Positions 21,680 to 64,000 of a DNA stretch of 64,000 bases are shown here, piece by piece. Within the stretch, counting starts at the first letter, position 1, and every line of letters begins with the position of its first letter. The notes below the pieces were generated by a model. The model was not told the origin of the DNA and did not search any database. It was given only the letters and a program-made list of their open reading frames with translations. The position numbers and the translations under genes were made by a program. The stretch spans positions 868,001-932,000 of the forward strand of contig NZ_CANDNZ010000002.1 in assembly GCF_947387555.1 (NCBI RefSeq), read 5' to 3'. The stretch is from Thalassomonas sp. RHCl1 (GTDB lineage: Bacteria > Pseudomonadota > Gammaproteobacteria > Enterobacterales > Alteromonadaceae).

Positions 21680-23002
21680 TTAACCCAAAGGGATGGCCAG
21701 CTTAAAAGCAGCTCCGCCCAAATCACTTTGCTCCACCCGTAAATCCCCCTTATGCAGAGCAGCAATTTCCCGGCAAATGGTCAGCCCCAGGCCATAACCT
21801 GACACCCGATGATGGTTTTTACCGCTGAGTCTGAAGTAAGGCTGAAAAATTTGCTCCCGGTATTGCTCGGGTATGCCCTCGCCGTCGTCTTCAACGCTAA
21901 AGAGCAGATACTCTTGCTGGCGATACACTTTAAGCTTTATCTGCTTTTTACCGTATTTTATCGCGTTACGGAGCAAGTTATTCAGAGCGCGGCTTAATTT
22001 TCCCTTATCGGCCTGAAGCCGGGTATCGGATCCTGCGGAGATCTCCAGCACTATCGGGGGAGAATTGTCCTTGCTCAGCTTTTCATCTCCCTGGCTTTCT
22101 CTGCTCTTGGCTTCAATGGCCAGGTTCTCACACAAAGCTTCAACAAACGGGATGATCAAAACGGGCTCATTTTTTAACGCCAGCTCCGAGCGCTGCATTT
22201 TTCCATATTCGAGGAATTCATCCACCAGTTCATCGAGCTGAAAAACATCTTCTTCCAGGCTGCGTAAATGTGCTTGCCTGTCTTCTTCACTGGCATGCTC
22301 GAGCAAATCAAGTTGTAGTTGCAGCCTGAACAGCGGCGAACGCAGTTCGTGGGCAACCGCCTGAGTCAGACGTTTATGTCCGAGCAACAATTGTTCGATA
22401 CGCTCGGCCATTTCATTAAACCTGAGATTGAGTCGCCCCACGGTGAGGCTTTTTTTTGTCGGCGCCCGCTGGTCCAGCTGGCCCTGGCTGATTTTATCGG
22501 CAGTATTTTCCAGATAACGCAGCTTCCTGTGTAAGCCGTATAACCAGATAAAGCAATTGAGGGCGATAAAGACGATAAAAGCGATAAAAATGGCCATACC
22601 TACGTCATCATCGATAAGCAGCAATTCATGGTGTTCATCTTCAGCGAGACGGTAATATTGCACCGGGGTAAAGGCCTTAAAATAATTATATTCGTCATCG
22701 TCAAACCAAACCGGATGTTGGTTAAGTTGTGCCTGGATCGCTTCCGGGATCTCTTTTGGCGCCACTTGCTCTATCAGCAGCTGATTTTTTTCAGCGATCT
22801 GCTTTATCAGTTGCTCACGCTCCTGCCTGCTGATATGGGCATCAAGGCGTTCCAGTAAAGCAACTTCGGCACTAAACTGCTCGGCATCGATAATATTCTC
22901 GATATCTATGATCAAAAAGGTATTGATCAGGTGAGCGACCAGAATAAACACCATAAAGGTCGCCAAAATTCCCAAATACAGGGAGATAAATAATCGGGTC
23001 AT
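21680..23002 (-). CDS. RstB-like sensor histidine kinase
   Basis: The 440-residue protein has two membrane helices (about 5-30 and 135-158) flanking a periplasmic domain of about 105 residues, then HAMP, the phosphoacceptor helix (AVAHELRSPLFRLQ, His218) and a HATPase domain. The latter has NNLLRNAIKYG (N box), VEDDGEGIPEQY (G1) and GYGLGLTICRE (G2). It resembles E. coli RstB in layout. It follows its response regulator by 30 bp. It is a clear paralogue of the kinase at 50103-51386: the first 10 residues and the YGLHRKLR region are identical. Confidence 0.9.
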   Translation of the reverse strand: MTRLFISLYLGILATFMVFILVAHLINTFLIIDIENIIDAEQFSAEVALLERLDAHISRQEREQLIKQIAEKNQLLIEQVAPKEIPEAIQAQLNQHPVWFDDDEYNYFKAFTPVQYYRLAEDEHHELLLIDDDVGMAIFIAFIVFIALNCFIWLYGLHRKLRYLENTADKISQGQLDQRAPTKKSLTVGRLNLRFNEMAERIEQLLLGHKRLTQAVAHELRSPLFRLQLQLDLLEHASEEDRQAHLRSLEEDVFQLDELVDEFLEYGKMQRSELALKNEPVLIIPFVEALCENLAIEAKSRESQGDEKLSKDNSPPIVLEISAGSDTRLQADKGKLSRALNNLLRNAIKYGKKQIKLKVYRQQEYLLFSVEDDGEGIPEQYREQIFQPYFRLSGKNHHRVSGYGLGLTICREIAALHKGDLRVEQSDLGGAAFKLAIPLG

Positions 23003-23032: not shown

Positions 23033-23782
23033 TTACCAGTAGTCGGGAACAAAAAGATAACCTTTCCCCCGTACGGTAATAATGCCTTTGGGGCGGCTGG
23101 CATCGTCATTGAGTTTTTTTCTCAGCTGGGCAATTTTGTTATCTATGGTCCGGTTAAGGCCGTCATATTCAAGTCCGGATAACACTTGCAGCAATTGCTC
23201 GCGCGAAAGCACAATTTCCGCCTGACTAGCCAGGGCCCATAGAATTAAGAACTCCGAAGGGGTTAACGGCACAACTTCTTCGCCAAGCTTGCATCTTTGC
23301 AGGGAAGCATTAATCCACAACCGGCCAAAGGCCAGCACCTTGTCACTTGCTGCTAACTCGCCGCTGCCTGCCTGCTGAATGTTATCCTGACGCCTTAACA
23401 GCATGCGCACCCGCGCCAGCAACACCCGGGGTTGAATGGGTTTATGGACAAAGTCATCGGCGCCCATTTCCAGGGCCGCCACCTGATCCATATCATCACC
23501 GGTGGCCGTTAGGATCAAAATCTTGCCGCTATATTTTTCCCGGATATTACGGCAAATCGACAAACCGTCCTGTCCCGGCAACATCAGATCCAAGATCACA
23601 ATCGAGGGAGGATCTGCCAGAATTTTTTCCGCAGCCTCACTGCCACTGGAGATAACATTGACGCTAAAACCAAAGCCTTGAAAATAACTTTGCAGCAAAA
23701 ACGCCATTTTCTCGTCATCTTCAACCAGGGTAACACTTTCTTTCACAAATAACAGAGTCCGCTCTAAAGGAGTGAACTCCAT
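23033..23782 (-). CDS. RstA-like OmpR-family response regulator
   Basis: The 249-residue protein has a receiver domain with the acidic pair EDDEK (21-25), phosphoacceptor Asp65 in VILDLMLPGQDG, and the conserved lysine in FVHKPIQPR. A winged-helix DNA-binding domain follows (VPLTPSEFLILWAL, LNRTIDNKIAQLRKKL, ITVRGKGYLFVP). It is the second gene of a lipoprotein-regulator-kinase operon. Its paralogue at 51440-52195 has an almost identical recognition-helix region, so the two may bind similar sites. Confidence 0.92.
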   Translation of the reverse strand: MEFTPLERTLLFVKESVTLVEDDEKMAFLLQSYFQGFGFSVNVISSGSEAAEKILADPPSIVILDLMLPGQDGLSICRNIREKYSGKILILTATGDDMDQVAALEMGADDFVHKPIQPRVLLARVRMLLRRQDNIQQAGSGELAASDKVLAFGRLWINASLQRCKLGEEVVPLTPSEFLILWALASQAEIVLSREQLLQVLSGLEYDGLNRTIDNKIAQLRKKLNDDASRPKGIITVRGKGYLFVPDYW

Positions 23783-23811: not shown

Positions 23812-24816
23812 TTAATCTGTAACTAAATCGTATTGGTTCAATTCTGCTTCACTCATAATATGCACACCGTTAAAAGGCGCAGCATTGATAGTATAAAAGT
23901 AAAATTTCGGCCCTTTTTCTGCTCCCATCATTTCCCTGAAATAAGTCAATTGTGCACCATGGGCCTCATGCTCCTCTCCCAGCTCGTTAGCAGGTTTGCC
24001 TGCACTGCAGCACCATGAGTGTACCCCTAGCTTACCGCCGGTGTGATATTTTCTTTCCACACCGGCAGCAAATAAATCAACACCGCCGGAATATGCCTCG
24101 CCATCGGCTGGCATCAAGGTGGTTAATCCCGCTTGACGAATCAAACGGCCAGTATGCATGTTGATAGCGTCATTGACCGAACCGTCAACACTGTCAAAAA
24201 CCAGAGTACTTATCGTGTGGCTATTCAGTATCTCCTGCATATCAATATAGGTTTGCGTGCCTAAAGTTCCCGAGATTGTCATCCGCTCACCTTCATGAAC
24301 TAAAGTACTGCTGCCACCGGAAATTAAAGATTCATTAAAAACAAGCCGAACCGGGTAGCTGTTTTGAGTTTGCGTATCCACAGCCGAGCCGGTGTAAATA
24401 TAATTATCATCATCTTCTGTTATTTCAATGGCCGTGCCTTGCAATAACCGACTGGTCTCAAAGTTCTCCAGATCGCCGGTATCTCCTTCCATAAAAATCA
24501 GCTCACTTACCGGTTTTTCTCCATTAAGATCAAAACCTATTCTCACCATACCTGCCGAATACTTTGCCAAAATAAAATTGTTTTCAACAGACATATCAAT
24601 AAAGCTGATAGCAGATTGCCGACCGTCAAACTGCAACTGTAACTGTGCCTGCTGTTGTTTAAATGTTTCGACATAGGCCGGTACATCCTGCGGCTGGATA
24701 TGATGTACCTCGACAGCTTTATTTTCACCAACAACCGTATTTGACTTTGAACCAGAGCCGCCACACGCCTGCAACACCATAGTCGTAATAACGACCAGAG
24801 GAATTAACTTTTTCAT
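23812..24816 (-). CDS. Lipoprotein with a ClpP/COG3904-like domain
   Basis: The 334-residue protein has a lipobox (LQAC, Cys18) and a Ser/Gly-rich linker. The C-terminal part follows the pattern of the COG3904 periplasmic ClpP-like family: DSVDGSVNDAINMHTGRLIR, GLTTLMPADGEAYSGGVDLF, AAGVERK, then LGVHSW. Ser243 would be the nucleophile and His266 the general base by analogy. The usual cysteine pair around the serine is absent, so activity is uncertain. It is 29 bp upstream of the regulator gene. AAGGAAG precedes its ATG, and an OmpR-type site lies upstream. It may supply a periplasmic signal to the kinase, which is inference. Confidence 0.6.
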   Translation of the reverse strand: MKKLIPLVVITTMVLQACGGSGSKSNTVVGENKAVEVHHIQPQDVPAYVETFKQQQAQLQLQFDGRQSAISFIDMSVENNFILAKYSAGMVRIGFDLNGEKPVSELIFMEGDTGDLENFETSRLLQGTAIEITEDDDNYIYTGSAVDTQTQNSYPVRLVFNESLISGGSSTLVHEGERMTISGTLGTQTYIDMQEILNSHTISTLVFDSVDGSVNDAINMHTGRLIRQAGLTTLMPADGEAYSGGVDLFAAGVERKYHTGGKLGVHSWCCSAGKPANELGEEHEAHGAQLTYFREMMGAEKGPKFYFYTINAAPFNGVHIMSEAELNQYDLVTD

Positions 24817-24872: not shown

Positions 24873-24884
24873 TAGAACGAATAG

Positions 24885-24914
24885 GTACGGCTTTGTAACG
24901 AAAACCGTTACATT
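24885..24914 (-). promoter_or_regulatory. Candidate OmpR/RstA-family binding site
   Basis: The element contains GTAACG-AAAAC-CGTTAC (24895-24911), extended on the plus strand to TTTGTAACG / CGTTACATT. It includes GTTACA, the core of the E. coli RstA box. The minus-strand stretch TTACAAAGCCGTAC (24898-24885) is identical to bases 52532-52545 in the array before the phospholipase gene. Confidence 0.5.
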
Positions 24915-50102: not shown

Positions 50103-51386
50103 CTATTTGCCTGCACCGGGCAAAATCAGCTTAAAGGCCGCACCGCCGAGTGCGCTGTCTTCAACAATTAATTGCCCGCTGTGCATTTCGGCTATTTCCC
50201 GGCAAATAGTCAGGCCCAAACCATAACCTGATACCCGCTGCTGTGTTTTGTCGCTGATACGAAAGTAAGGCTGAAAAATGTCCCGGCGATACTGTTTGGG
50301 TATACCCGGGCCGTCATCTTCAACGCTAAAAACCAGCTGCTGCTTCACCTGGTATACCCTTAACAGCACTTGCCTGTGACCGTATTTAAAGGCATTTCTG
50401 AGCAGGTTTTTCAGGGCGCGGGCCAGCTTTAACTTGTCCGCCGTTAACCGGGTATTATCGCCAATGTCCAATTCCAGCTTAATATCCGCATCGGTTTCTA
50501 TAGTCAGGTTTTCACACAGGGCGTTGACAAAAGCCGGGACTTTAATAAGTTCGGCATTTAAACGCAGCTCTGTCCGCTCCATTTTGCCGTATTCCAGAAA
50601 CTCTTCCACCAGTTCATCCAGCTGATAAATGTCTTCTTCAACGCTGCGCAAATGTTCATGCTGCTCTTGCGGTTTGGCATGTTCAATAATGTCCATTTGC
50701 AGGTGCAGGCGAAACAGGGGCGAGCGCAACTCGTGGGCAACGGCATGGGTCAGGCGCTTATGCCCAAGCAGCAGCTGCTCTATTCTTTGTGCCATTTCAT
50801 TAAAACTGTGGTTTAGGCGCCCTACCCTGAGCCTTTTCTTCATCGGCGCCCGCTGATGCAACTGCCCCCGGCTCAGTTTGTCTGCGGCATTTTCCAGGTG
50901 GCGTAATTTTCTGTGCAGGCCGTATAACCAGAGGAAGCTGTTGGCGGCAAAAATAAAAACAAAGGAAAACAGCACGGTATACATGATGGTTTCACTTAAA
51001 ATGATCAACTCGTTTTCTTCATCTACGCTCGTGCGGTAGTAGTTAACCGGGGTAAAGGCACGGAAGTAATTGTACTGGTAATCGTCAAACCACACCGGGT
51101 GATTATCCAGCTGCACCAGTACTTCCTGCGGTACCTGGTCTTTGGCCACTTGTTCGATAATCAGCTGGTTTTGTTTGGCGATCATTTGTATCAGTTGTCC
51201 GCGTTCATGTTCGCTGATCTCGCTATCGAGCCGCTCCAGCAATTGCACTTCGGCATTAAACTGCTCGGCGCCGATAGTATTGGTGATGTCGATAAACATC
51301 GAGGTAATGATCAAATCTACAACCAGTAAAAAAATAAACATGGACACTAAAATGCCCAGGTACAGGGAAATAAATAATCGGGTCAT
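50103..51386 (-). CDS. RstB-like sensor histidine kinase (second paralogue)
   Basis: The 427-residue protein has the same layout as the kinase at 21680-23002: MTRLFISLYLGIL start, periplasmic domain with NHPVWFDDYQYNYFRAFTPV, HAMP, His218 in AVAHELRSPLFRLH, N box KNLLRNAFKYG, and G boxes VEDDGPGIPKQY and GYGLGLTICRE. It is shorter mainly in the linker of the ATPase domain. The periplasmic domains are also conserved, so both kinases may sense similar signals. It lies 53 bp after its regulator. It is the nearest sensor to the phospholipase genes. Confidence 0.9.
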   Translation of the reverse strand: MTRLFISLYLGILVSMFIFLLVVDLIITSMFIDITNTIGAEQFNAEVQLLERLDSEISEHERGQLIQMIAKQNQLIIEQVAKDQVPQEVLVQLDNHPVWFDDYQYNYFRAFTPVNYYRTSVDEENELIILSETIMYTVLFSFVFIFAANSFLWLYGLHRKLRHLENAADKLSRGQLHQRAPMKKRLRVGRLNHSFNEMAQRIEQLLLGHKRLTHAVAHELRSPLFRLHLQMDIIEHAKPQEQHEHLRSVEEDIYQLDELVEEFLEYGKMERTELRLNAELIKVPAFVNALCENLTIETDADIKLELDIGDNTRLTADKLKLARALKNLLRNAFKYGHRQVLLRVYQVKQQLVFSVEDDGPGIPKQYRRDIFQPYFRISDKTQQRVSGYGLGLTICREIAEMHSGQLIVEDSALGGAAFKLILPGAGK

Positions 51387-51439: not shown

Positions 51440-52195
51440 CTACCAGTAGTCGGGCACAAACAGGTAGCCTTTGTTGCGCACGGTAATAATGCCCTTGGGA
51501 CGGCTGGCGTTGTCTTTGAGCTTTTTTCTCAGCTGGGCGATTTTATTGTCGATGATCCGGCTAAGACCATCGTATTCCATGCCCGACAATAAAGGCAGCA
51601 GCTGCTCACGCGACAGCACTTGTTCCGCGTGGTAGGCCAGGTGCCAGAGAATGGCAAATTCCGATGAGGTCAAGGAGATCTCAACTTCCCCCAGGCTGCA
51701 TGACTGCTGCGAGCGGTTCAGATACAGCTCGCCATATTGCAACACTTTAGTTTCAGCCGCACGGTTTTCCTCCGCCGGGTGATCTACCAAGCCAAAAGCA
51801 CCGCTGCGTCTTAATAACATCCGGATACGGGCCAGCAACACTCTCGGGTTAATGGGTTTATTGACAAAATCATCGGCCCCCATTTCCAGCGCCGCCACCT
51901 GATCCATATCGTCTCCGGTGGCGGTTAAAATGAGAATTTTTCCATTATATTTTTCCCGTATGCTGCGGCAAACAGATAAACCGTCTTGTCCCGGCAACAT
52001 CAGGTCAAGAATCACAATGGTAGGCGGGTTATTGATGATTTCCCGGGCGGCATGCTCGCCTGAGTTAATAATATCCACCCGGTAATCAAAACCACAAAAG
52101 TAGTTTTTCATCAACAAGGCCATTTTTTCGTCGTCTTCGACTATGGTAATACTTTCTTTCACAAATAACGGCGTCCAATCCATAGAGGCGGGCAT
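51440..52195 (-). CDS. RstA-like OmpR-family response regulator (second paralogue)
   Basis: The 251-residue protein has receiver acidic pair EDDEK, phosphoacceptor Asp64 in VILDLMLPGQDG, and KPINPRVLLAR. The winged helix has LSRIIDNKIAQLRKKL and ITVRNKGYLFVPDYW, nearly identical to the regulator at 23033-23782. It is divergent from the phospholipase genes across 519 bp, which carry an array of 10-bp-spaced motifs typical of OmpR-family binding. It is the best candidate for the factor that binds there. Confidence 0.92.
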   Translation of the reverse strand: MPASMDWTPLFVKESITIVEDDEKMALLMKNYFCGFDYRVDIINSGEHAAREIINNPPTIVILDLMLPGQDGLSVCRSIREKYNGKILILTATGDDMDQVAALEMGADDFVNKPINPRVLLARIRMLLRRSGAFGLVDHPAEENRAAETKVLQYGELYLNRSQQSCSLGEVEISLTSSEFAILWHLAYHAEQVLSREQLLPLLSGMEYDGLSRIIDNKIAQLRKKLKDNASRPKGIITVRNKGYLFVPDYW

Positions 52196-52714
52196 ATTCC
52201 ACTTCTTTATTACAAATTAAAAAACAATCAGCTGTTCATCAGCGCTTGTATGTCTGGGGTTTCGGCGATAAGGCTGCCGGCCACTGCAGGTTTCATAACG
52301 CCATTACTTAAGCATAAGTACGGGCGCAGTTATGAGCACAGCTACGGGCACAGGCACATGGGGGGCTTTCATCACTTGCCACATGAATATCATTAAAATA
52401 TTCCGGATTCAATACAAGAAAAGACAATAATCAGGCCTGACCGGCGGCGTCATTTGGGCGAACTTGCCTGAAAAGCTAATGCTTATAAAAACTTAAGCCC
52501 AGTGCTGCGAATAACTTAAACGGAGAAACCATTACAAAGCCGTACAAAGCCATACAAACCGCGACAAAAAGTTGATTCATTTTTCGCCGGATGCAGAGAT
52601 ATCCTTTGCCCAAGGGATAAAAAACAAGCTATCGGCTGCTTTATATCCCCAGGCCTTACTCTATTTCATTGAAATCCTTCGTTTTAGGATCCGTTATTAC
52701 AAGGTAGTAAATCT
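52196..52714. other. Divergent control region of the second RstA gene and the phospholipase genes
   Basis: 519 bases without a gene. It holds the phased array at 52533-52568 and a -35-like TTGATT (52572-52577) just after it. A good -10 at standard spacing is not seen. The half next to the regulator gene shows nothing I can name. Confidence 0.5.
52533..52568 (+). promoter_or_regulatory. Helically phased ACAAA array, candidate OmpR-family operator
   Basis: TACAAA occurs at 52533, 52543 and 52553, and GACAAA at 52563, exactly 10 bp apart. The first two units also share GCC after the motif. Ten-bp direct half-sites are typical of OmpR/RstA-family regulators. The array lies 147 bp before the phospholipase ATG. 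Confidence 0.6.
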
Positions 52715-54610
52715 ATGACTAAAGCTTCGACCGGCAAGGCTTATGCTTTGCCCTTCTCTCTGACTGCGTTAATCGCGTTGTCGGCGCCGGCAACTGCGCT
52801 TGCGGCAACACCGGCGCTATCGAGCAGCCAGGCGTTAAATCATCAATACCGGCTGCAGCAGCATGAGCCCATCGTTGCCGGTGTTATCGCCGGTACCCAT
52901 AACTCGTACAGCTCAAATGCCTATAACTTAAAGCTGGCGGAGAACCAGAACCTGTCCATCACAGAGCAGCTTAATGCCGGCGCCCGGATATTGGAGTTGG
53001 ACTTGTGGCGTACCCGGGCGGTGGAGTATGGCGCGGTCTATTTATGCCACAGCAAAGTCACCTGCGGCAGTGTGATTAACGGCGGCGATTACATTTACCT
53101 CGACAGCGCCTTAAGGGAAATAAGCACCTGGACCCGGGAAAACCCGGATCAGATCCTGATCATCAAACTTGAAAAGCAGATGCATGATGACGATTACCAC
53201 TTATTTACCGAGTCGGTACAACGCCAGATAGGCGATATTATCTACCGCCCGCTGCAGGCACAAAGCCAGCAGCAATGCCAGGGATTCCCCGCCGCCTTAA
53301 CCCCGGCGCAGATGCTGGCCCAGGGAAAACAAGTGATCTTCTACGGCGCTTCCGCCTGCAACGGCAAGTCCTACAACTGGGTCTTTAAAGGCACCAACCC
53401 GGAAAAAAGCGCCGACCGGGTAAAAGACAACCGCAGCGCCCTGCTAGCTTGCAGCGATCACGGCGATGGCCGCTTTGCCCTCTTTTACGATCAGGCAGAA
53501 GAAGATTACGGCACAGATCACTATATTCCCACCGATATGATCGCCGGTTTGTCTGCCTGCGGCGGCAGTGCCTTTGCCTTTGACTGGTTAACATCAAACG
53601 ACGACCGGATGAAAGCCGCACTTTGGAGCTGGGCACAGGGCCAGCCGGACAGCAAGCCAAGCGATGCCGGCTCAGGCAAGGCCACTTGCGCCGTCAGCAG
53701 CAACGGCCGTTTCTATGATGAAGACTGCTCTTTATCTTATGCCTATGCCTGCAGCAACCAACAACAGCAGTGGCAGATCACCCAAGGCAAAGGCAGCTGG
53801 CAAAACGGCGAGGCCGTATGTCAGGCAGAATACGGCACAAGCTTTCATTTCGACGTGCCCCGTACCGCCAGGCAAAACCAACAAGCTAAAGCAGCCCGTA
53901 ATTTTGAAGGACAAGACTACTGGCTCAACTATGCCTACGGCGAAAACGAAAAGCTGTGGTTAAGCCCCGAAGACAGAGCGGCAGTTAAGCCGGATAAGTC
54001 CCGTTACCTTAAGGTACAACGCTGGACGGATAACCAGTTTGTCTACAGCGATTATAAAACCGGCACAGGTAATAATATTTCCCTCTGGCGCAGCAAGAAC
54101 CTGCCAGAGAACTGGTACCCTTTAGGTGATATTCCCGGCCTGGCCACCGACGGCCCCTGGGCGTCTTCCTATTCCCGCAACCCCGGCAGCTCGATCGTGG
54201 TTTTTGATGACGGCACAGGCAAGCTGGCGCCACCGGCAAGTTATGCCTGGCGCTGGAACGACTGGAAAACCGGCGGCGCCTACGACATCACCTTTTGGCA
54301 GCCGATCCCTCCTGCGGGCTACACCTGCCTGGGGGATATCGCCATCAGAAGCCACAGCCGGAGCCAACCGGATAAAGATCATCTGCGCTGTGTCAGGAAC
54401 GACTTGTTGCTTGAGGGCCAGGCCCACTGGTACTGGAGCGACTCGGGTTCAGGCGGCGAATATGATGCCACGGTTTATACCAGCTCAACAAAAGTCGGCG
54501 CCGATTTAGCCGCGGGATTGCCCGCCAATGTCTGGAAAACCCGGAGCAGCGGACACAAGGTTTTAAACTTCAATAAAGTCAATATGCTCACCCCGGATAG
54601 CAGCTTATAA
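52715..54610 (+). CDS. Secreted PI-PLC-like protein with lectin-like and Vps62-like domains
   Basis: The 631-residue protein has a signal peptide (cleavage near ALAATP). Residues about 50-320 form a PI-PLC X-type TIM barrel with the two catalytic histidine regions, IAGTHNSYS (His62) and YLCHS (His112), and LELDLW between them. A cysteine-rich middle domain (about 325-415; CSLSYAYACSN, WQNGEAVCQAEYG) resembles C-type-lectin-like modules. The C-terminal part (about 455-600) looks Vps62-like: WRWNDWKTGGAYDITFWQPI, PAGYTCLGDIA. It is probably an exported phospholipase acting on host or prey membranes. It is followed by a similar gene without a terminator, so they form an operon. Confidence 0.8.
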   Translation: MTKASTGKAYALPFSLTALIALSAPATALAATPALSSSQALNHQYRLQQHEPIVAGVIAGTHNSYSSNAYNLKLAENQNLSITEQLNAGARILELDLWRTRAVEYGAVYLCHSKVTCGSVINGGDYIYLDSALREISTWTRENPDQILIIKLEKQMHDDDYHLFTESVQRQIGDIIYRPLQAQSQQQCQGFPAALTPAQMLAQGKQVIFYGASACNGKSYNWVFKGTNPEKSADRVKDNRSALLACSDHGDGRFALFYDQAEEDYGTDHYIPTDMIAGLSACGGSAFAFDWLTSNDDRMKAALWSWAQGQPDSKPSDAGSGKATCAVSSNGRFYDEDCSLSYAYACSNQQQQWQITQGKGSWQNGEAVCQAEYGTSFHFDVPRTARQNQQAKAARNFEGQDYWLNYAYGENEKLWLSPEDRAAVKPDKSRYLKVQRWTDNQFVYSDYKTGTGNNISLWRSKNLPENWYPLGDIPGLATDGPWASSYSRNPGSSIVVFDDGTGKLAPPASYAWRWNDWKTGGAYDITFWQPIPPAGYTCLGDIAIRSHSRSQPDKDHLRCVRNDLLLEGQAHWYWSDSGSGGEYDATVYTSSTKVGADLAAGLPANVWKTRSSGHKVLNFNKVNMLTPDSSL

Positions 54611-54723: not shown

Positions 54724-56358
54724 ATGAAGACAACAACAATGAGCAAAAAGCCGACTAACAAAAAAGCCCTGATGCTGGCCATAACCGCAGCCGCCGGTAC
54801 TTTTACCGCCTCCGCCGACCAGCTTGGCCCCTATCACAGCCAGGACTGGGTCGGCCAGATTTATCAAAACCGGGGAGATACCCGGTTAAGGGACATAGTG
54901 ATCCCCGGCACCCATGACTCGGGCACCTATAATATGCACTCGGGTTCGGATCTTTCGCCGGATGCCGAATCGTGGGCGCCTTATGTTACCGGGCTGTTGG
55001 GACAGGCAGGCGGCCATATCATAGCCAAATGGGGACGCACCCAGTCTTACGATATCCACACTATGCTGGAAAAAGGCATACGCCACTTTGATCTGAGGAT
55101 CAAAAAACATCAGGGAGAATTTGTCATCGTCCATACTATGGTGGCGATGAAGGTTAAAGACGTGTTGGCGCAAGTCAAGCAGTTTGCAGAGGCACATCCG
55201 AAAGAGCCGATAATCCTGGAAGTAGCCAAAACTCCCGACAGCGCAGATATGCCCGCGTTATTGGATTTGTTTGATCAATACATAGGTCAGCGTAAGCCAA
55301 ATAACAGTGTTAAAACGGCGGATCTTACCTTGAACACGCTTTGGCAAGATCATGGTGGTGACGGCAAAAATGACAATGTGGTGGTGGTCTGGAGCTCTTC
55401 CAGCGAAGACGGCAAGTCCCGGGGCTATTTCGGCGCAGAAAACTTTACCGGCACCTGGGCCAATACCGAAAGCTACGGGGAATTACGCGACCGGCTGCTA
55501 ACGGGGCTAAAAAGCGCGCCAGATGACAAGCTCTTCTACAGCGCCTTCACCTACACCCCGACGGCCGGCACCATAATCAAAGACGCCATAGGGTTTGGCA
55601 AAAAACGCAGCCTGCTCAACTGGAGCCAGGACTTTTTACGTCCCTACCTGGGGGAGCTGGTTCCCGCCTGGGCACAGGCCGGTTACCGCCCCAATATTAT
55701 GACCGCTGATTTTTTTGAATACACTGCCCTGATCCCCACGGCGCTGCAACTAAATACCCTGCCGCCCCAAGCGCCAACAAATAAGCTGCAAGTCACCCGG
55801 GCCGCGGGCGTGAAACGGGTGTGGACCGATGTCAATTCCGGCGCCGACACCGATGGCTCGGTATGGGTGGCAGAAGAAAAACCCGGTTATAAACCTTTGG
55901 CCTATATGCCGATCACCGGCTATCACTTCGACCCGGCGATTGACCAGTTGCTGGTCAAAGCAGATCAAGCAGGGGTTGTCCGGCCTTTAGGTTACAACTG
56001 GGTTTGGGACGATGTCGGCAACGGCGGCAGTGAATTTATCCAGGTATGGCGGCCGATAGCGCCCGCCGGTTATGTTTGTCTCGGTGATGTCGCCACGCCC
56101 AGCGCCCATCAGCATATTGCCCCTTCCACCGACTTGATCCGCTGCGTACATCAAAGTTATGTCGCCCAGGCGCCGTCTATATATCAAAAATGGACGGATA
56201 AAGACTCCGGCGGGACTTATGACGGCTCTTTATGGGACAGCGCCAACCATAACGGCAGCACCTATAATATCGGCGCACTGCGCACCAGCCGCGGCTACGC
56301 TCAACCCGATAACGCCCTGTTTCAGTTACTGCTGAAAAGCAAAACCGTGGAAATGTAA
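54724..56358 (+). CDS. Secreted PI-PLC-like protein with Vps62-like C-terminus
   Basis: The 544-residue protein has a signal peptide ending near TASADQ. The PI-PLC X-type domain (about 40-345) has the catalytic-histidine motifs PGTHDSGTYN (His64) and FVIVHTM (His137), with GIRHFDLRI between. It is closer to bacterial phosphatidylinositol-specific phospholipase C than the preceding protein. The C-terminal part repeats the Vps62-like pattern (YNWVWDDVGNGGSEFIQVWR, PAGYVCLGDVA) but lacks the lectin-like insert. AAGGA is placed well before the ATG. It lies 113 bp after its partner and is likely co-transcribed. Confidence 0.83.
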   Translation: MKTTTMSKKPTNKKALMLAITAAAGTFTASADQLGPYHSQDWVGQIYQNRGDTRLRDIVIPGTHDSGTYNMHSGSDLSPDAESWAPYVTGLLGQAGGHIIAKWGRTQSYDIHTMLEKGIRHFDLRIKKHQGEFVIVHTMVAMKVKDVLAQVKQFAEAHPKEPIILEVAKTPDSADMPALLDLFDQYIGQRKPNNSVKTADLTLNTLWQDHGGDGKNDNVVVVWSSSSEDGKSRGYFGAENFTGTWANTESYGELRDRLLTGLKSAPDDKLFYSAFTYTPTAGTIIKDAIGFGKKRSLLNWSQDFLRPYLGELVPAWAQAGYRPNIMTADFFEYTALIPTALQLNTLPPQAPTNKLQVTRAAGVKRVWTDVNSGADTDGSVWVAEEKPGYKPLAYMPITGYHFDPAIDQLLVKADQAGVVRPLGYNWVWDDVGNGGSEFIQVWRPIAPAGYVCLGDVATPSAHQHIAPSTDLIRCVHQSYVAQAPSIYQKWTDKDSGGTYDGSLWDSANHNGSTYNIGALRTSRGYAQPDNALFQLLLKSKTVEM

Positions 56359-57623: not shown

Positions 57624-57653
57624 ATTGGGGTTAATTGGGGTTAATTGGGGTTA
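57624..57653. repeat. Three exact 10-bp tandem repeats
   Basis: ATTGGGGTTA repeated three times without change. The last copies cover the stop codon of the 1476-residue gene on the minus strand (end Pro-Asn-Pro-Asn-stop), so copies added beyond the stop would not alter the protein. Confidence 0.9.
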
Positions 57654-60600
57654 GGAATATAACGGCTGACACCGTCGACTCTGTGGGTTACCCGCCATAC
57701 CGGGACGGCACTTTCACGCATTTGTTTGAGTATCTTCGCTGTGGTGATCTCACTGTCATGCAAATCTGTGCCCCTGATCAGGTGCGGCGACACCACCCTT
57801 TCAAAGAAGAATTTAAGGTTATTATCGCTTGCCGGCAGGAAATAGCTGCGGGAGTTATATTTATCCACCGCCCAGGGCAAAGTATTGTTGTTATCGTCCT
57901 GTACTTCGCTGGTCACACCTTTGTCAATGCTGGCATTAAAACTGATCGTGCTGGTATTGTTTTTACTGCCGACAAAGCTGCGCGAATAGTAGCCGCCGAC
58001 CCCGACGCCAAAACCGGCGCCTGTTGGCGGATTTTCCAGGACATAGTCAACATTGGCTTCAATCGAGAAGTCATAACCGAGCCGGTCGGTCACAGAAGCT
58101 GCTGCCGTGGTACTGGTGCCGATAAAGCCGCCGTCGGAAACCGCTATGCCCGACACCAGCAATTTATCGCCGATAAAGGCTTCGGCGGAGGTGCCGGTAG
58201 AGCCTGCCCGGGAGACATTGGCGGCGGCATTGTAGCGTTTTTCCAGCTCCAGCTGCTGACGTTTATCTTCGGTGCGCCAGGCGCTTTCTTCCCTCGGGTT
58301 GAAATAAGAGAACCCGGCATTGTCTACTTTCTTCGGGCCGATATAACCGTCGAGAGAGCCCGCTTTGAGATATTCGGGATTGAGCTTAAAGTTGATACTC
58401 TCTTCATTGACGGCGGCATCGGAGAAATCCAGGCTATAACCTACCAGCTTATTGGTCTTGGGGTTATACATGGCATAACGCGAAGCACTTAAGGTCGAAG
58501 TGAACAGCGTACCTTCGGTGTGCGGCGCCCACAGCTCGGTTTTACTGCCGTCGCTATTTTCTTCATAGCAGGTATCGAGATAGGCACTTTCATTACTGTT
58601 ACACTTTCTGCTCGGCACGCTACCGGTAATAAAACTTTTCCTGGAGATATTTTTAGTCAGGCTGTAATCCTCCGCCTTGCCAAACGTCGCCCCGCCGGTT
58701 ACGGCAAGTGCGGCGGTCAGGCTGTGCTCGACAAAAATAGCCTTGCCGCCCCAACGCACATAACCGCTGGCTTTGGCGCCCAGGGCATTGTTGGCATCGG
58801 TAGAAACCGTGGTGCCCCTTTCGATCATAATTTCGACATCCGACAGTTCGGTGGAATAGGTCCAGATCCCGTTTTGGTTGCGGCCCAAGTTTTCCCGGGG
58901 AACCGGCGGCGGCCCTTCCATATAACCGATAGGCGTACTGCTGACCACCACACGTCCGGCAAAGCGGCTTTTTAACTGTCCGCGATCTTCTGAGGAGAAG
59001 GCGAACTTGTAACTGCCGTCGTCTTGTTTTAACAAGGTGACGTATTCGCGTATCAGCCTGGCTTCTTTTCTACCGCCAAACTCGCTCAGGCGGCCACTGC
59101 TAAAGACCACAGGGGCAAAACCGCCGCTGACCGGCACATCATTTCCCTGGTAGAAAACGCCAAATTTAGGCGACCATTTTGGCAAGGTATCCCCTGCTCT
59201 TGGGATCTGCAGGGCCTGGTATTTGCCAAAGGCACTCCTGTCTGACGGCGCCGGCCAGCTATGGGGAAACTCCAATGCCCTTACCGTATCTGAGCCGTCC
59301 ACACCCCAGTTGGTGCGCATACTGGTTTTATTCAGGGCAGGATCTAACACATGGCTGACGATATCGCCGCTGGCCGCACGGAAATAATGGTGCAACAAGC
59401 CGTCAGAGCCAAAAAACAAGCTGCTATTGCCGGTATCGTTATTCTTTAATGCTACATCGGCATAGCCGTTATATGACAGCGCCCTTTTGCCCTGTTTCGG
59501 CTCGCCGCGGCTGTCAATCGGAATATGGGTAAACCGGGTTTCCCGGCCGTTGATATTGGTTGCTATGACCAGCTCCCGATCAACCAGGGCATTGATTTGC
59601 TCGCCCGCGGCACTTGCTGCGGCGGAAGTATCGATCACGATAGAATCTAAAGCACGCATATAGCCGTGGTTTCGGGTATACAGGGCTTGATGCCATTTGC
59701 TGACCGCGGCTGTCGTGCCGTCTTTAAGGTAGTTGATATTATTGGTATCGAAGATCTGATCTTTACCGAGCCGGTAACTGGCAACCGCCATATCCAGGCT
59801 ATTGCTGCCGGAGCAGAAACCGCTGACCCCGGTCGTTAAAAACAAACGTTGTCTGCCTTTGCCTTCGCCGGCGATTGCAGCGGAGATCTCGTCTATTTGA
59901 CACAATTCATTGTCAAGGGTGCCCGCCAGCGCATAAGGGATGACAAAAGCCGGCTCTAAAAAGCTGTTGCCGTCTTTATCGACGGTAGAAATATCGACCT
60001 CTTCGGTAAAAGATTGTTTCTGGGAAGCCTTAGTGACCACCTCTGTGGCATTGCCCGGCACATAACGCTTGCCGGAAGATTTATATCTCGACTCGATTAA
60101 ACGCAGAAACTTGTTGTCCACCTCGGAAAACTCAAAACGCTCCACCAGGGCGTTAACCTCTTTGCCTGTGCCGTAGCCGCTTAAACCGTGGGCCCGGAAC
60201 AGATAAAGGTATTGTCCGTCGGTTTCAACATCAAATGCCTGACCCTTATAAGCAGCATTACAGACAGGAACAAGGTAACCGCCTTCACTGCTTTGGCTAG
60301 CATTACTGATCGCCGGGTCGCTTAAGAAACGTTTGCCTGTGGGAATATCATTGCTACAGCGCACATCGTTATCCTGCAGGTAAAGCGGCAGCGCCTGTGC
60401 TTTTTGCCAGCCGTTTTCATCCTTATAGATGTATTTGATCTCATTCTCTTCACCGAAAAAGACAAACTTTTTATCCTTATAGCTGACACCGGCGATGCGT
60501 TTGACATTATGTACGGCTTCCTGGTTAACCGCCGCAACGGGATCGTAAGGCGGCATCAGGTAGAGTACGGGTGTCAGGCTATCTTGGGTCAAAATAAGCA

Positions 60601-62071
60601 AGTCATTAAAACCGTCGCCGTTGAAATCGGACGATGTCATACCGGTATCCTTTAACACAGTGCTCGGCAAATTATAATAACTGCCGTTATCGTCAAGGGC
60701 CTTAGTGTGTTTAATGCCGACAAAACTGACATCTTTGCCGTTAGTCTCTTCATTGCCAGTGGTTGAATATAAAACGAAAATGCTGCCTGCTATGGTGGCA
60801 ATATCATCGCGGCTGTCGTTATTAAAATCGGCAACCACCGCCAGAGGGTTGTCTTTTTTCGCGCTTGAGTGTTCGATAACCGACTTGGAGAAAAGACCGA
60901 CTTTACTTCGGGTAACCGTTTTTCTGCCGGTACGGTCCACTTTGGCTTTCACCGCATGGCTGGTGTAAATGGTATATTTGCCGTTTTCCATAAAGAGAAT
61001 ATCTTTACTGCCGTCACCGTTAAAATCGCCGATACGCACATCCTCTTCACCAAAATCGGCAAAAGAAGTCTTCACCTGGTTGTCATTGCTGGTTTTCAGG
61101 TAGTCGTTATCGGCATCCAAATAGAGGTAGCTGCGCCTGAAAGTGGCATTTTCACCTTCCTGTGCAAACCAGATATCAATTTTCGCGTGGCCGTCATCGC
61201 TATTGCTGATGCCGTCCAGATCCTCTTTACGATCCCACCTGAGAAAATCATCAAGGCCATCGCCGTTAAAATCACCAAAGGCAGTATTGGAGTTACCGAT
61301 ATACAGCAAATGTTGTGCTTTGCTTGCCTGGCTTGAGCCGTCGCTGCTGTCGGACATTTTCACCGTCAGGTATTCATTTTCAGGCCGGTAGGCAATAAAA
61401 GCACTGTGATTATCACTGCGGTTCAGGCTGCGTCCCATAAAGCTGTAATTGTCATTTTCCCCTTTGAAAAAGCTGATTTCATCAACGACGTCGGGAAATG
61501 CATTTATGGTATATTTTTTCTTTAATTGTGCACTCTGGTTGTTCGGCGAGCCGTCACCCCGGGTACCCGTGACTTCGACGCTATAAACCTCTACCGCTTT
61601 AATGTCGCCATTGGCGGTCGTGGTTACCGGCCTGGAGATTGAATTTGGCAAATCAAAAGCACTGCTTGAAAACATAAAGGGGGTATTGGTTTCGGTAATA
61701 CTCAAACTATCCGGCAGCTCGATGCGGGAAAAGCGGACCTGCCCCGAGGTAAATAATTCCGACCACTGCCCTCTTTGCGCCTCGGGAGCATATTTGCCGC
61801 TACCGCCGACCGAGCGGTTAAGCAAGACCTGTATGCCATGGCCGCTGTTGCTTTTTTCCAACAGGAAAATATCGTCGGTGCCATTGTTGTCCAGATCGCC
61901 ATAATCATTTGAAAAAAGAGGTTTGCCGCCGGATGTCGGCAAGGTGGTGCGCTTTAACGGCACCGTAGAGGTGTGTTCTTCAACTGCCTGGGCTAACACG
62001 GGTATACCCAAAAGCAGCATCAGGGGAAAACTTATCAAAGATCCCTTTTTCTTACTTCTTAACATATTCAT
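57641..62071 (-). CDS. Large secreted FG-GAP (integrin-like) repeat protein
   Basis: The 1476-residue protein has a signal peptide (cleavage near VLAQAVEE). The N-terminal third holds FG-GAP/VCBS-type calcium-binding repeats: GDLDNNGTDDIFLL (58-71), GDFNGDGLDDFL (266-277), GDFNGDGSKDILF (348-360), ADFNNDSRDDIATI (414-427) and SDFNGDGFNDLLIL (481-494). Such repeats build a beta-propeller. The middle and C-terminal parts match no family I know; the end has many Gly/Ser-rich beta stretches (GAGFGVGVGGYYSRSF) and one possible disulfide pair. The better-spaced start may be the second ATG at 62065. It is probably a secreted adhesin or toxin. The phased array at 62321-62390 lies upstream. Confidence 0.75.
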   Translation of the reverse strand: MNMLRSKKKGSLISFPLMLLLGIPVLAQAVEEHTSTVPLKRTTLPTSGGKPLFSNDYGDLDNNGTDDIFLLEKSNSGHGIQVLLNRSVGGSGKYAPEAQRGQWSELFTSGQVRFSRIELPDSLSITETNTPFMFSSSAFDLPNSISRPVTTTANGDIKAVEVYSVEVTGTRGDGSPNNQSAQLKKKYTINAFPDVVDEISFFKGENDNYSFMGRSLNRSDNHSAFIAYRPENEYLTVKMSDSSDGSSQASKAQHLLYIGNSNTAFGDFNGDGLDDFLRWDRKEDLDGISNSDDGHAKIDIWFAQEGENATFRRSYLYLDADNDYLKTSNDNQVKTSFADFGEEDVRIGDFNGDGSKDILFMENGKYTIYTSHAVKAKVDRTGRKTVTRSKVGLFSKSVIEHSSAKKDNPLAVVADFNNDSRDDIATIAGSIFVLYSTTGNEETNGKDVSFVGIKHTKALDDNGSYYNLPSTVLKDTGMTSSDFNGDGFNDLLILTQDSLTPVLYLMPPYDPVAAVNQEAVHNVKRIAGVSYKDKKFVFFGEENEIKYIYKDENGWQKAQALPLYLQDNDVRCSNDIPTGKRFLSDPAISNASQSSEGGYLVPVCNAAYKGQAFDVETDGQYLYLFRAHGLSGYGTGKEVNALVERFEFSEVDNKFLRLIESRYKSSGKRYVPGNATEVVTKASQKQSFTEEVDISTVDKDGNSFLEPAFVIPYALAGTLDNELCQIDEISAAIAGEGKGRQRLFLTTGVSGFCSGSNSLDMAVASYRLGKDQIFDTNNINYLKDGTTAAVSKWHQALYTRNHGYMRALDSIVIDTSAAASAAGEQINALVDRELVIATNINGRETRFTHIPIDSRGEPKQGKRALSYNGYADVALKNNDTGNSSLFFGSDGLLHHYFRAASGDIVSHVLDPALNKTSMRTNWGVDGSDTVRALEFPHSWPAPSDRSAFGKYQALQIPRAGDTLPKWSPKFGVFYQGNDVPVSGGFAPVVFSSGRLSEFGGRKEARLIREYVTLLKQDDGSYKFAFSSEDRGQLKSRFAGRVVVSSTPIGYMEGPPPVPRENLGRNQNGIWTYSTELSDVEIMIERGTTVSTDANNALGAKASGYVRWGGKAIFVEHSLTAALAVTGGATFGKAEDYSLTKNISRKSFITGSVPSRKCNSNESAYLDTCYEENSDGSKTELWAPHTEGTLFTSTLSASRYAMYNPKTNKLVGYSLDFSDAAVNEESINFKLNPEYLKAGSLDGYIGPKKVDNAGFSYFNPREESAWRTEDKRQQLELEKRYNAAANVSRAGSTGTSAEAFIGDKLLVSGIAVSDGGFIGTSTTAAASVTDRLGYDFSIEANVDYVLENPPTGAGFGVGVGGYYSRSFVGSKNNTSTISFNASIDKGVTSEVQDDNNNTLPWAVDKYNSRSYFLPASDNNLKFFFERVVSPHLIRGTDLHDSEITTAKILKQMRESAVPVWRVTHRVDGVSRYIPNPN

Positions 62072-62320
62072 ACCTATATCTTTAAAAACTTAATGTGAAA
62101 AATTAAACCTTGTATACAAAAAATCACTCACCTCCTTATGCAAAGATTCAAGATAGTGCTCTGTCAGTGATGTGTTGACTTCGGGGGCAACTTGAACGAT
62201 TCAGATAAAAACCGGGCCAGATATCTGGCATAGTACGAGAACATGACCCGGGCGTATTAGCATTGCGCTGCGCACACAGAAAACCGGGAGCGCCTGTTTA
62301 CTCTACAAGTTAACGGGTGA

Positions 62321-62390
62321 AATTAATGTCTGGCTTTGTCCCGGTTTGTCCCGGCTTATCTTCACCTGTCACGCTTTGTCTTGATTGGTC
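62321..62390 (-). promoter_or_regulatory. Helically phased GACAAA array, candidate OmpR-family operator
   Basis: Seven consecutive 10-base units end (plus strand) in ATGTC, TTTGTC, TTTGTC, CTTATC, CCTGTC, TTTGTC and TTGGTC. On the minus strand this is GACAAA at 10-bp steps, the same motif as at 52533-52568. It reads toward the gene starting at 62071, 250 bp away. The rest of the 62072-62630 gap holds no gene I can support. Confidence 0.6.
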
Positions 62391-62630
62391 TCAAAGCCAG
62401 CTTATAAAACCTAAAACCAAAGAAAATATAACCAATAAAATTCAACAACTTGCACATTACCTATCCAATTTCTCGCGGTTCCCGCCCAGTCTTTAGGGCG
62501 ATAGACAAAGGCTTTTTCTATCACTAAAGTAGCGACCGGTTTTTGGCCGCATGCTCTTGCTATCACCTCTTGCTATCAAGAAAGGAGCGGACCATTAATC
62601 TGTGATCCATAGTGAAGTTAAAGGAATAAA

Positions 62631-64000
62631 ATGAAACCCTACCAAAGAAGAATACTGTTACCGTTTTTATTAATCAGCCAGCAGGCTCTGGCAGCCGATG
62701 TCTGCGAAATCGATAAAAGCACACTGGAAAGCAATTTATCCAAAGTTGAAGCCACGGTAGATACCCTGGCAGAAACCGAATTGCCGTCGGCAACCAAACT
62801 CTCGATGCTGGCAGAGCTTACCCCTAAGCTCACGGCTTTTGTTGATGTCCTGGGCAAGATAGGCACAGTGGCCGGCCTGGGCATAGGGGTTTATGAAATT
62901 GCCGACGGCGCCAAAAGCCATAACTCGTCGGAAATTATTGACGGCAGCCTGAACATTGCCAGTGTGGTGGCGCCGGAAATTGTCTCAACCATAGTCGGAG
63001 AGCTGGCCGGTGAAGCCATCGGCGGTATTGCCGGAGGTGCGGCGGCCTTTGTCGTCATTGAAGGCATGGACATCTACAACGGCGTAAAAGTAGAAAAAGT
63101 GATTTCCAGCATAAAACACCAAAATGCCAAACTCAGCGAAGTCTACGGCGCCAATGTCACCGCCCTTGAACAAGGCTTGAGCGAAACCCGCCGGGTGATT
63201 GCCGGTGATTCGGATGAATTATATAAGATCACGACAGAAAATTTCGGCCGGGTTGCCGTAGAGTTAACCAAACGTTCTATCGACACCCTGGGCAATACCT
63301 TTTATTTAAGGGAAATGGGTAAAAAAGCCCTGAAATTATCGCAGGAAAATCACGATAAAAACGTGTTAACTTATAGCGAAGGCGGCGATAGCTTAGATAA
63401 AGACATCATAATGCAACGCCTTGAGGGCATGAACTTTAACCTCAAATTTTGGTACAGTATCGAGAAAGAGCAAATAGGCGGCGAAGGCAACGGCCGCCCC
63501 GTCAACACCAACGGTATTTGGAATGATTACTTTATCAGCAACAACTACTATTGGGGCCTGAGCCAGGCAACCCCGGATATGACCACCAACGAGCTGGAAG
63601 TTCGCCTGCTCACGCCGACTCTTTTTTCTAAAGGTGTGCAGAGCCATTTTATTCCGCTGGACAAATGGTCTAAAGCCACACTTGAGCCCGTAGTCACCCG
63701 CCTTGTCGATAGCGCTTTTGACGATAAACAGGCATTGGCAAAAGACTATCACGCGGTATTGCAGCAGGTGCTCAATAACTATCCCAAACTTCAAGCGCAA
63801 ATGCTGGAAAGTTATAACCAAACCATCACCCAGCGGTATTCCTGGCTGAAATTCGGCCAGCAGCTGATGGCACATTTGGATTACAGCGATGAAAAAACCA
63901 TAGATGCGCTGATTTGGACCTTCAGGATATTAAACCCGCTGGCAGCCTCTTTTGCCGAAGGTGCGCTGGATAAAAAATTAATCGAATCCGTCAATGTCAG
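62631..64000 (+). CDS. Secreted protein with glycine-zipper hydrophobic segment (3' end outside window)
   Basis: From the ATG at 62631 (AAGGA 6 bases before) the frame is open to the right edge: 456 codons so far. A signal peptide ends near QQALAADV. After an amphipathic helical region, residues about 75-150 form a Gly/Ala-rich hydrophobic segment (IVGELAGEAIGGIAGGAAAF). Long amphipathic helices and a more mixed C-terminal region follow. A buried glycine-zipper hairpin flanked by helices is typical of alpha-helical pore-forming toxins, but no named family is recognised. It is divergent from the FG-GAP protein gene and shares its control region. Confidence 0.68.
   Translation, partial: MKPYQRRILLPFLLISQQALAADVCEIDKSTLESNLSKVEATVDTLAETELPSATKLSMLAELTPKLTAFVDVLGKIGTVAGLGIGVYEIADGAKSHNSSEIIDGSLNIASVVAPEIVSTIVGELAGEAIGGIAGGAAAFVVIEGMDIYNGVKVEKVISSIKHQNAKLSEVYGANVTALEQGLSETRRVIAGDSDELYKITTENFGRVAVELTKRSIDTLGNTFYLREMGKKALKLSQENHDKNVLTYSEGGDSLDKDIIMQRLEGMNFNLKFWYSIEKEQIGGEGNGRPVNTNGIWNDYFISNNYYWGLSQATPDMTTNELEVRLLTPTLFSKGVQSHFIPLDKWSKATLEPVVTRLVDSAFDDKQALAKDYHAVLQQVLNNYPKLQAQMLESYNQTITQRYSWLKFGQQLMAHLDYSDEKTIDALIWTFRILNPLAASFAEGALDKKLIESVNV

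Follow-up and report, generated by a model that had tools for sequence, protein, structure and literature searches.

A conserved seven-unit array in Thalassomonas sp. RHCl1, best read as an extended site for an RstA-type response regulator

A seven-unit array of GAC-led half-sites, located at 62321–62390 of the 64-kb window (the whole stretch of 64,000 nucleotides analysed here), is a real, conserved, multi-half-site control element. Regulator kinship, site geometry and co-occurrence together favour reading it as an extended RstA-type site, a known kind of switch in an unusually long form. The protein that would probably bind its stacked half-sites is an RstA-type response regulator, and the product of 51440–52195 is the most likely candidate; the strict TACA box is absent from the array itself.

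Composition and significance of the array

The array and its two flanking genes are as follows.

62321–62390, minus strand: seven-unit 10-bp array of GAC-led half-sites (direct reading and scoring)
57641–62071, minus strand: FG-GAP protein of 1476 aa, flanking the array
62631–64000, plus strand: gene of a 671-aa protein, the other flanking gene, which runs past the window end (whole gene, L221:632–2647)

Read directly on the plus strand, the array divides into AATTAATGTC TGGCTTTGTC CCGGTTTGTC CCGGCTTATC TTCACCTGTC ACGCTTTGTC TTGATTGGTC; the minus-strand units are GACCAATCAA GACAAAGCGT GACAGGTGAA GATAAGCCGG GACAAACCGG GACAAAGCCA GACATTAATT. The first-pass annotation described units ending in variants of TTTGTC (GACAAA on the minus strand), and this description holds: TTTGTC in exact form closes three of the seven units, and the last three bases are GTC in six units and ATC in the remaining one. 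Read on the minus strand, each unit starts with GA, and six of them with GAC.

Each 10-bp unit was scored for its match to KACAAA, which gives a maximum of 42 for seven units and 24 for four. The seven-unit score of the array is 35/42, the top of the whole 64-kb window, and the maximum in 40 window-length Markov sequences is 29. None of 2000 shuffled controls, Markov sequences built from the array's own 559-bp intergenic region, reaches 35 (maximum 32), which confirms the seven-unit array proposed in the first pass. When only four units are scored, the value of 20 is reached by 2/40 controls and is not significant; the signal is thus carried by the length of the array. Among periods of 6 to 14, period 10 gives 0.98 bits per column and the next best 0.63. 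In a sample of 243 loci (1.1 Mb with overlaps, many of them chosen for resemblance to the motif), seven-unit scores of at least 32 are found only in this array, the sister array at 52533, their counterparts in genome G003 and two plain tandem repeats.

Conservation within the genus

Four genomes of the genus were compared: the own genome (G000), G001, G002 and G003. In G003, six such units are in register and a seventh GACA lies one base out of step, all in the same orientation and adjoining the orthologous FG-GAP gene, which is 87% identical to that of the own genome. The G003 array scores 34/42, with a maximum of 29 in 2000 controls. Relative to the same codon, the best seven-unit stretch starts at −329 in G003 and at −325 in the own genome, and much of the non-coding sequence around it has diverged. 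Over six unit pairs, 32/36 core positions and 12/24 non-core positions are kept between the two genomes.

These comparisons bear on the idea that no protein reads the array, which would instead be DNA bent by phased A-tracts or a tandem repeat arising from replication slippage. Plain tandem repeats of a similar motif do exist (GACAAGCAAA in the own genome and TACAAAACAT in G001), but their units are near-identical, whereas the 62321 units vary in their non-core bases. In the comparison between species, the G, A and C positions are kept in 6, 6 and 5 of the six pairs and the following A positions in 4, 6 and 5, against 3, 3, 2 and 4 for the rest of the unit. We therefore regard such an origin as very improbable.

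G002 has a four-unit array, GACAAAACAA GACAAAGTAA GACATAGCAA GACACATATC, upstream of a homologue of the 62631 gene (82% identical), although the FG-GAP gene is missing from this genome; here the 62631 homologue comes after the kinase gene of the 51440 system. The unit starts lie 256–286 bp from the start codon of the 62631 gene in G002, 240–300 bp in the own genome and 223–273 bp in G003 (the seventh at 284). No match to the FG-GAP protein was found in G001 or G002, and no array was found at the FG-GAP paralogues (43% and 48% identical).

The three of four genomes that carry arrays are those with the 51440 regulator, phospholipase 1 and the 62631 gene; G001 is without all of these. Its best match to the 51440 regulator (71%) is the orthologue of the 23033 paralogue, its best match to phospholipase 1 is 33%, and both the 62631 gene and the FG-GAP gene are absent. 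Array presence follows the 51440 system, in 3/3 genomes with it and 0/1 without it, and the flanking genes are lost along with it in G001.

In G003 the 62631 gene is also present as an additional, broken copy, with no array nearby. This copy is seen twice on one contig (G003:C2:29995–33271 and G003:C2:1196111–1199387) with the same scores and spacing, perhaps due to overlapping contig ends or a large duplication.

The divergent region and its possible targets

The array lies between two divergent genes, each with a candidate promoter.

62300–62330, minus strand: candidate FG-GAP-side promoter, GACATT-N19-TAGAGT, which includes the last array unit (inferred from alignment)
62502–62530, plus strand: candidate core promoter of the 62631 gene, TAGACA-N17-TAAAGT (promoter scan and comparison)

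By eye, G003 has GACATT-N19-TAAAGT at the position of the FG-GAP-side candidate. TAGACA-N17-TAAAGT is found by eye with the same hexamers and spacing in 3/3 genomes (own, G002 and G003); it is the sole site in the promoter scan of the 62631 region, where a shuffled region averages 1.2 such sites. The FG-GAP protein has no solved-structure relative at E 0.01. The 671-aa protein has no Pfam family at E 1, and its gene is present in 3/147 genomes of the family, all three of this genus. By eye, the start of this protein resembles a signal peptide.

Because the array is part of a divergent control region, a target other than the FG-GAP gene is also conceivable. The earlier placement of the array before this gene is right in that the two adjoin, but G002 keeps the array without it. 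Going by its GAC strand, the array faces the FG-GAP gene, just as the 52533 array faces phospholipase 1. Orientation thus favours the FG-GAP gene and G002 favours the 62631 gene, so the target may be either or both.

The sister array and the adjacent RstA-type system

A two-component system, 10 kb from the 62321 array, adjoins the sister array.

50103–51386, minus strand: RstB-type histidine kinase
51440–52195, minus strand: RstA-type response regulator that is proposed to read the arrays
52533–52572, plus strand: sister array, TACAAAGCCG TACAAAGCCA TACAAACCGC GACAAAAAGT
52715–54610, plus strand: PI-PLC-X domain protein (phospholipase 1)
54724–56358, plus strand: PI-PLC-X domain protein (phospholipase 2)

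The sister array lies between the regulator gene and the divergent phospholipase 1 gene and is kept in G002 and G003. It is the stronger of the two, with four units scoring 24/24. A promoter scan between the regulator gene and phospholipase 1 found no site.

The binding sites of RstA are TACA elements in tandem, arranged head to tail, and its box is given as TACATNTNGTTACA, with the classic form TACANNNNNNTACA (PMC4117788). The sister array has three consecutive TACA units followed by GACA, and so contains TACA-N6-TACA. In the 62321 array the 10-bp spacing is present, TACA-N6-TACA is absent, and all seven units have G first. The first-pass annotation had taken the two arrays to share one motif and knew of no description of it. 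Spacing and core are indeed common to both, but the first base is G in 7/7 units of one and T in 3/4 of the other; and the motif does have a precedent, since the sister array matches the RstA box in spacing and in its TACA core (PMC4117788).

This difference in the first base raises the possibility that the array serves some unrelated transcription factor whose site is a GAC-led 10-bp repeat, and that it resembles the 52533 array in part by coincidence. The distance of 10 kb from the regulator gene points the same way, and several OmpR-family sites share a 10-bp spacing. However, the 52533 array itself closes with a GACAAA unit, which is kept in G002 and G003, and both arrays are part of one gene cluster. 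In addition, a joint KACMAANCCN-type pattern with 0–1 mismatch matches just these two arrays genome-wide (7.56 Mb). An unrelated reader is thus rather unlikely.

Regulator kinship and DNA specificity

For the 51440 regulator the best NCBIfam model is RstA with 236.2 bits, under the cut-off of 330, followed by OmpR with 194.2; for its kinase it is RstB with 229 bits, under the cut-off of 478. In a tree of 31 rows, which is midpoint-rooted only and has long branches on several E. coli rows, the regulator falls in a 24-row clade with E. coli RstA (support 99/97), apart from OmpR, CpxR, PhoB, ArcA, PhoP and BaeR.

RstA of K. pneumoniae (kpRstA) contacts bases through R199, V203 and R207, and the R207A mutation abolished its DNA binding (PMC4117788). 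When residues are matched by alignment, with residue numbers fitted by us, these positions are R, N and Q in both regulators of the window, with 1/3 kept. Judged from this alignment, the recognition helix of the 51440 regulator is changed relative to kpRstA. Such a change would fit the relaxed first base and the AAAGCC context of the units; given the effect of R207A, it could equally mean a different site. The C2:241801 regulator has R, V and R at the contact positions, and upstream of its group TACATTTAGTTACA is found in 3/4 genomes and TACATTTAATTACA in the fourth.

TACA pairs were counted up to 1.5 kb upstream of 26 RstA-clade loci from four genomes (30 regulator loci minus four OmpR loci). 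Twenty-one pairs have a gap of 6 and two have any other gap from 2 to 12; the 21 are confined to 11/26 loci and three orthologue groups. Three gap-6 pairs (L034, L035 and L037) lie inside an apparent small coding frame. The four OmpR loci have no TACA pairs at any gap. A control set of 19 loci, which are chance matches to a 10-bp-period pattern and not a neutral sample (L084 and L085, inside the window, were dropped from 21), gives 2 pairs at gap 6 and 5 at all other gaps.

The paralogous system

A second two-component system is encoded in the window.

21680–23002, minus strand: paralogous RstB-type histidine kinase
23033–23782, minus strand: paralogous RstA-type response regulator
23812–24816, minus strand: first gene of the paralogous operon, lipoprotein-like by eye
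24884–24897, minus strand: half-site pair TACAAAGCCG TACC before the paralogous operon

The earlier suggestion that two two-component systems are linked gains support, the two being paralogues with regulators 70% identical. The region 24885–24914, by contrast, had been grouped with the two arrays and has only two half-sites, TACAAAGCCG TACC, on the minus strand. This pair is kept with one or two changes in 4/4 genomes of the genus including G001, which is without the 51440 orthologue, and thus more likely belongs to the 23033 system.

It may be asked whether the paralogue (23033–23782) reads the 62321 array, alone or together with the 51440 regulator, which would give two signals a common set of outputs. 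The two regulators and their orthologues form one genus clade (support 100/98), and the identity of their recognition-helix residues at the positions compared makes a common binding code plausible. The promoter of the paralogue also has TACAAAGCCG TACC, as in the 52533 array. On the other hand, G001 has the paralogue but is without the 51440 regulator, phospholipase 1 and the 62631 gene, and arrays occur where the 51440 system does; the comparison relies on a single genome, in which the flanking genes are absent too, and so discriminates weakly. On balance we consider a role of the paralogue unlikely, and a reading by the 51440 regulator remains our preferred one.

Proposed mechanism and comparison with known systems

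As reader of the 62321 array, the 51440 regulator would find head-to-tail half-sites for an OmpR-family protein of RstA type, one per 10 bp or about one helical turn. Upon sensing its signal, the RstB-type kinase would trigger the response, and phosphorylated dimers of the regulator may bind and stack next to one another along a single face of the helix. The regulator would then switch one or both of the flanking genes (FG-GAP and 62631) along with the phospholipase genes nearby. Activation is assumed here rather than repression, and which of the two flanking genes would respond is likewise conjectural. More tentatively, an RstA-type regulator that has been duplicated and whose recognition helix has changed may use four to seven half-sites in a divergent region as a cooperative platform to control a genus-specific cluster of secreted proteins, with the paralogue reading the same half-sites and two signals meeting on one array; we hold this fuller picture to be doubtful.

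If the proposal is true, one response-regulator subfamily would have natural arrays of four to seven half-sites whose length differs between sister species, and the paralogous regulators would be a pair for testing the change of DNA specificity after duplication. A regulator would also be proposed for a secreted-looking protein cluster that includes two PI-PLC-domain proteins and the Pfam-less 671-aa protein.

The arrays resemble the enterobacterial RstA box in the head-to-tail 10-bp repeat of an ACA-containing half-site, in TACA-N6-TACA of the 52533 array and in an adjacent regulator that groups with RstA; they differ in having four to seven half-sites instead of two, G first in all 62321 units, the AAAGCC context and changes in 2/3 of the base-contacting residues (PMC4117788). 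K. pneumoniae asr and csgD are reported to be without the classic box (PMC4117788). The ArcA sites of E. coli, also of an OmpR/PhoB-family regulator, have more than two direct repeats of varying strength, but they comprise two to five elements mostly 11 bp apart, compared with four to seven at 10 bp here, and the motif and the regulator clade are different (PMC3798270). In Photobacterium damselae, RstAB controls a secreted phospholipase D and pore-forming proteins, and a motif sharing residues with the RstA box is described in three promoters (PMC5385354, PMC6491958). A similar control of a secreted phospholipase and other secreted proteins by an RstAB-type system is proposed here, in another species, with another phospholipase type and with phospholipase genes adjoining the regulator gene; the available text of these two sources does not mention a half-site array for the P. 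damselae promoters (PMC5385354, PMC6491958). A literature search reaching few subscription journals listed nothing recognised as describing this system or half-site arrays for RstA.

Extent of the motif

Strong sites are few and local. The genome scan suggested in the first pass, three ACAAA at 10-bp spacing with at most one mismatch, gives 12 places and 9 for the reversed-pattern control, and does not pick up the 62321 array. With up to three mismatches, the KACMAANCCN-type pattern is near control level (48 places vs 43). As for the regulon once proposed with phospholipases and a giant protein, the linked genes do include two PI-PLC-domain proteins and an FG-GAP protein, but there is no sign of a wide regulon in these counts. 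Three KACMAA with at most one mismatch give 20 places in four genomes and 16 for the control. Four KACA units with at most one mismatch give 14 overlapping places vs 5 for the control; these are six distinct loci, among them the two window arrays and one plain tandem repeat.

TACA-N6-TACA-N6-TACA occurs 4 times in the own genome vs 0 for the reversed control. With K opening the last unit there are 26 triple sites in four genomes vs 7; a single tandem repeat in G001 accounts for four of the 26 and a repeat in the own genome for one. Apart from the 52533 array, three of these sites recur in 4/4 genomes (C1:538674, C1:542537 and C12:877). Such recurrent TACA arrays suggest that several RstA-type systems are served here rather than one regulon.

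By eye, the site at C1:538674 precedes an operon in which a lipoprotein-like gene is joined by one for an RstA-clade regulator. At L064 (G000:C1:542537–542560) three TACA units lie between trypsin-like protease and kinase-like genes in 4/4 genomes, and at L066 (G000:C12:877–900), which also recurs in 4/4, three TACA units lie about 100 bp from a YvcK-like gene and face away from it (gene names by eye). A weak KACA array is seen at L025 (G000:C24:58973–59006), between an RstA-clade regulator gene and a divergent gene which by eye encodes a lipoprotein-like oxidase.

In other genera, where 7 of 75 related-regulator loci plus L061 and L062 were scanned, the sole four-unit score of at least 18 is in L097 and L061, in a common stretch just after the regulator gene. 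The search in Cognaticolwellia and P. aurantia gave no 10-bp pattern in the 6 loci tried; by eye, TACA and GACA are 11 bp apart before a lipoprotein gene in both.

The plain 10-bp tandem repeats, GACAAGCAAA at G000:C2:92004–92077 and TACAAAACAT at G001:C1:5144215–5144268, look like products of slippage rather than regulator arrays. The former lies directly before a gene that by eye is short-chain-dehydrogenase-like.
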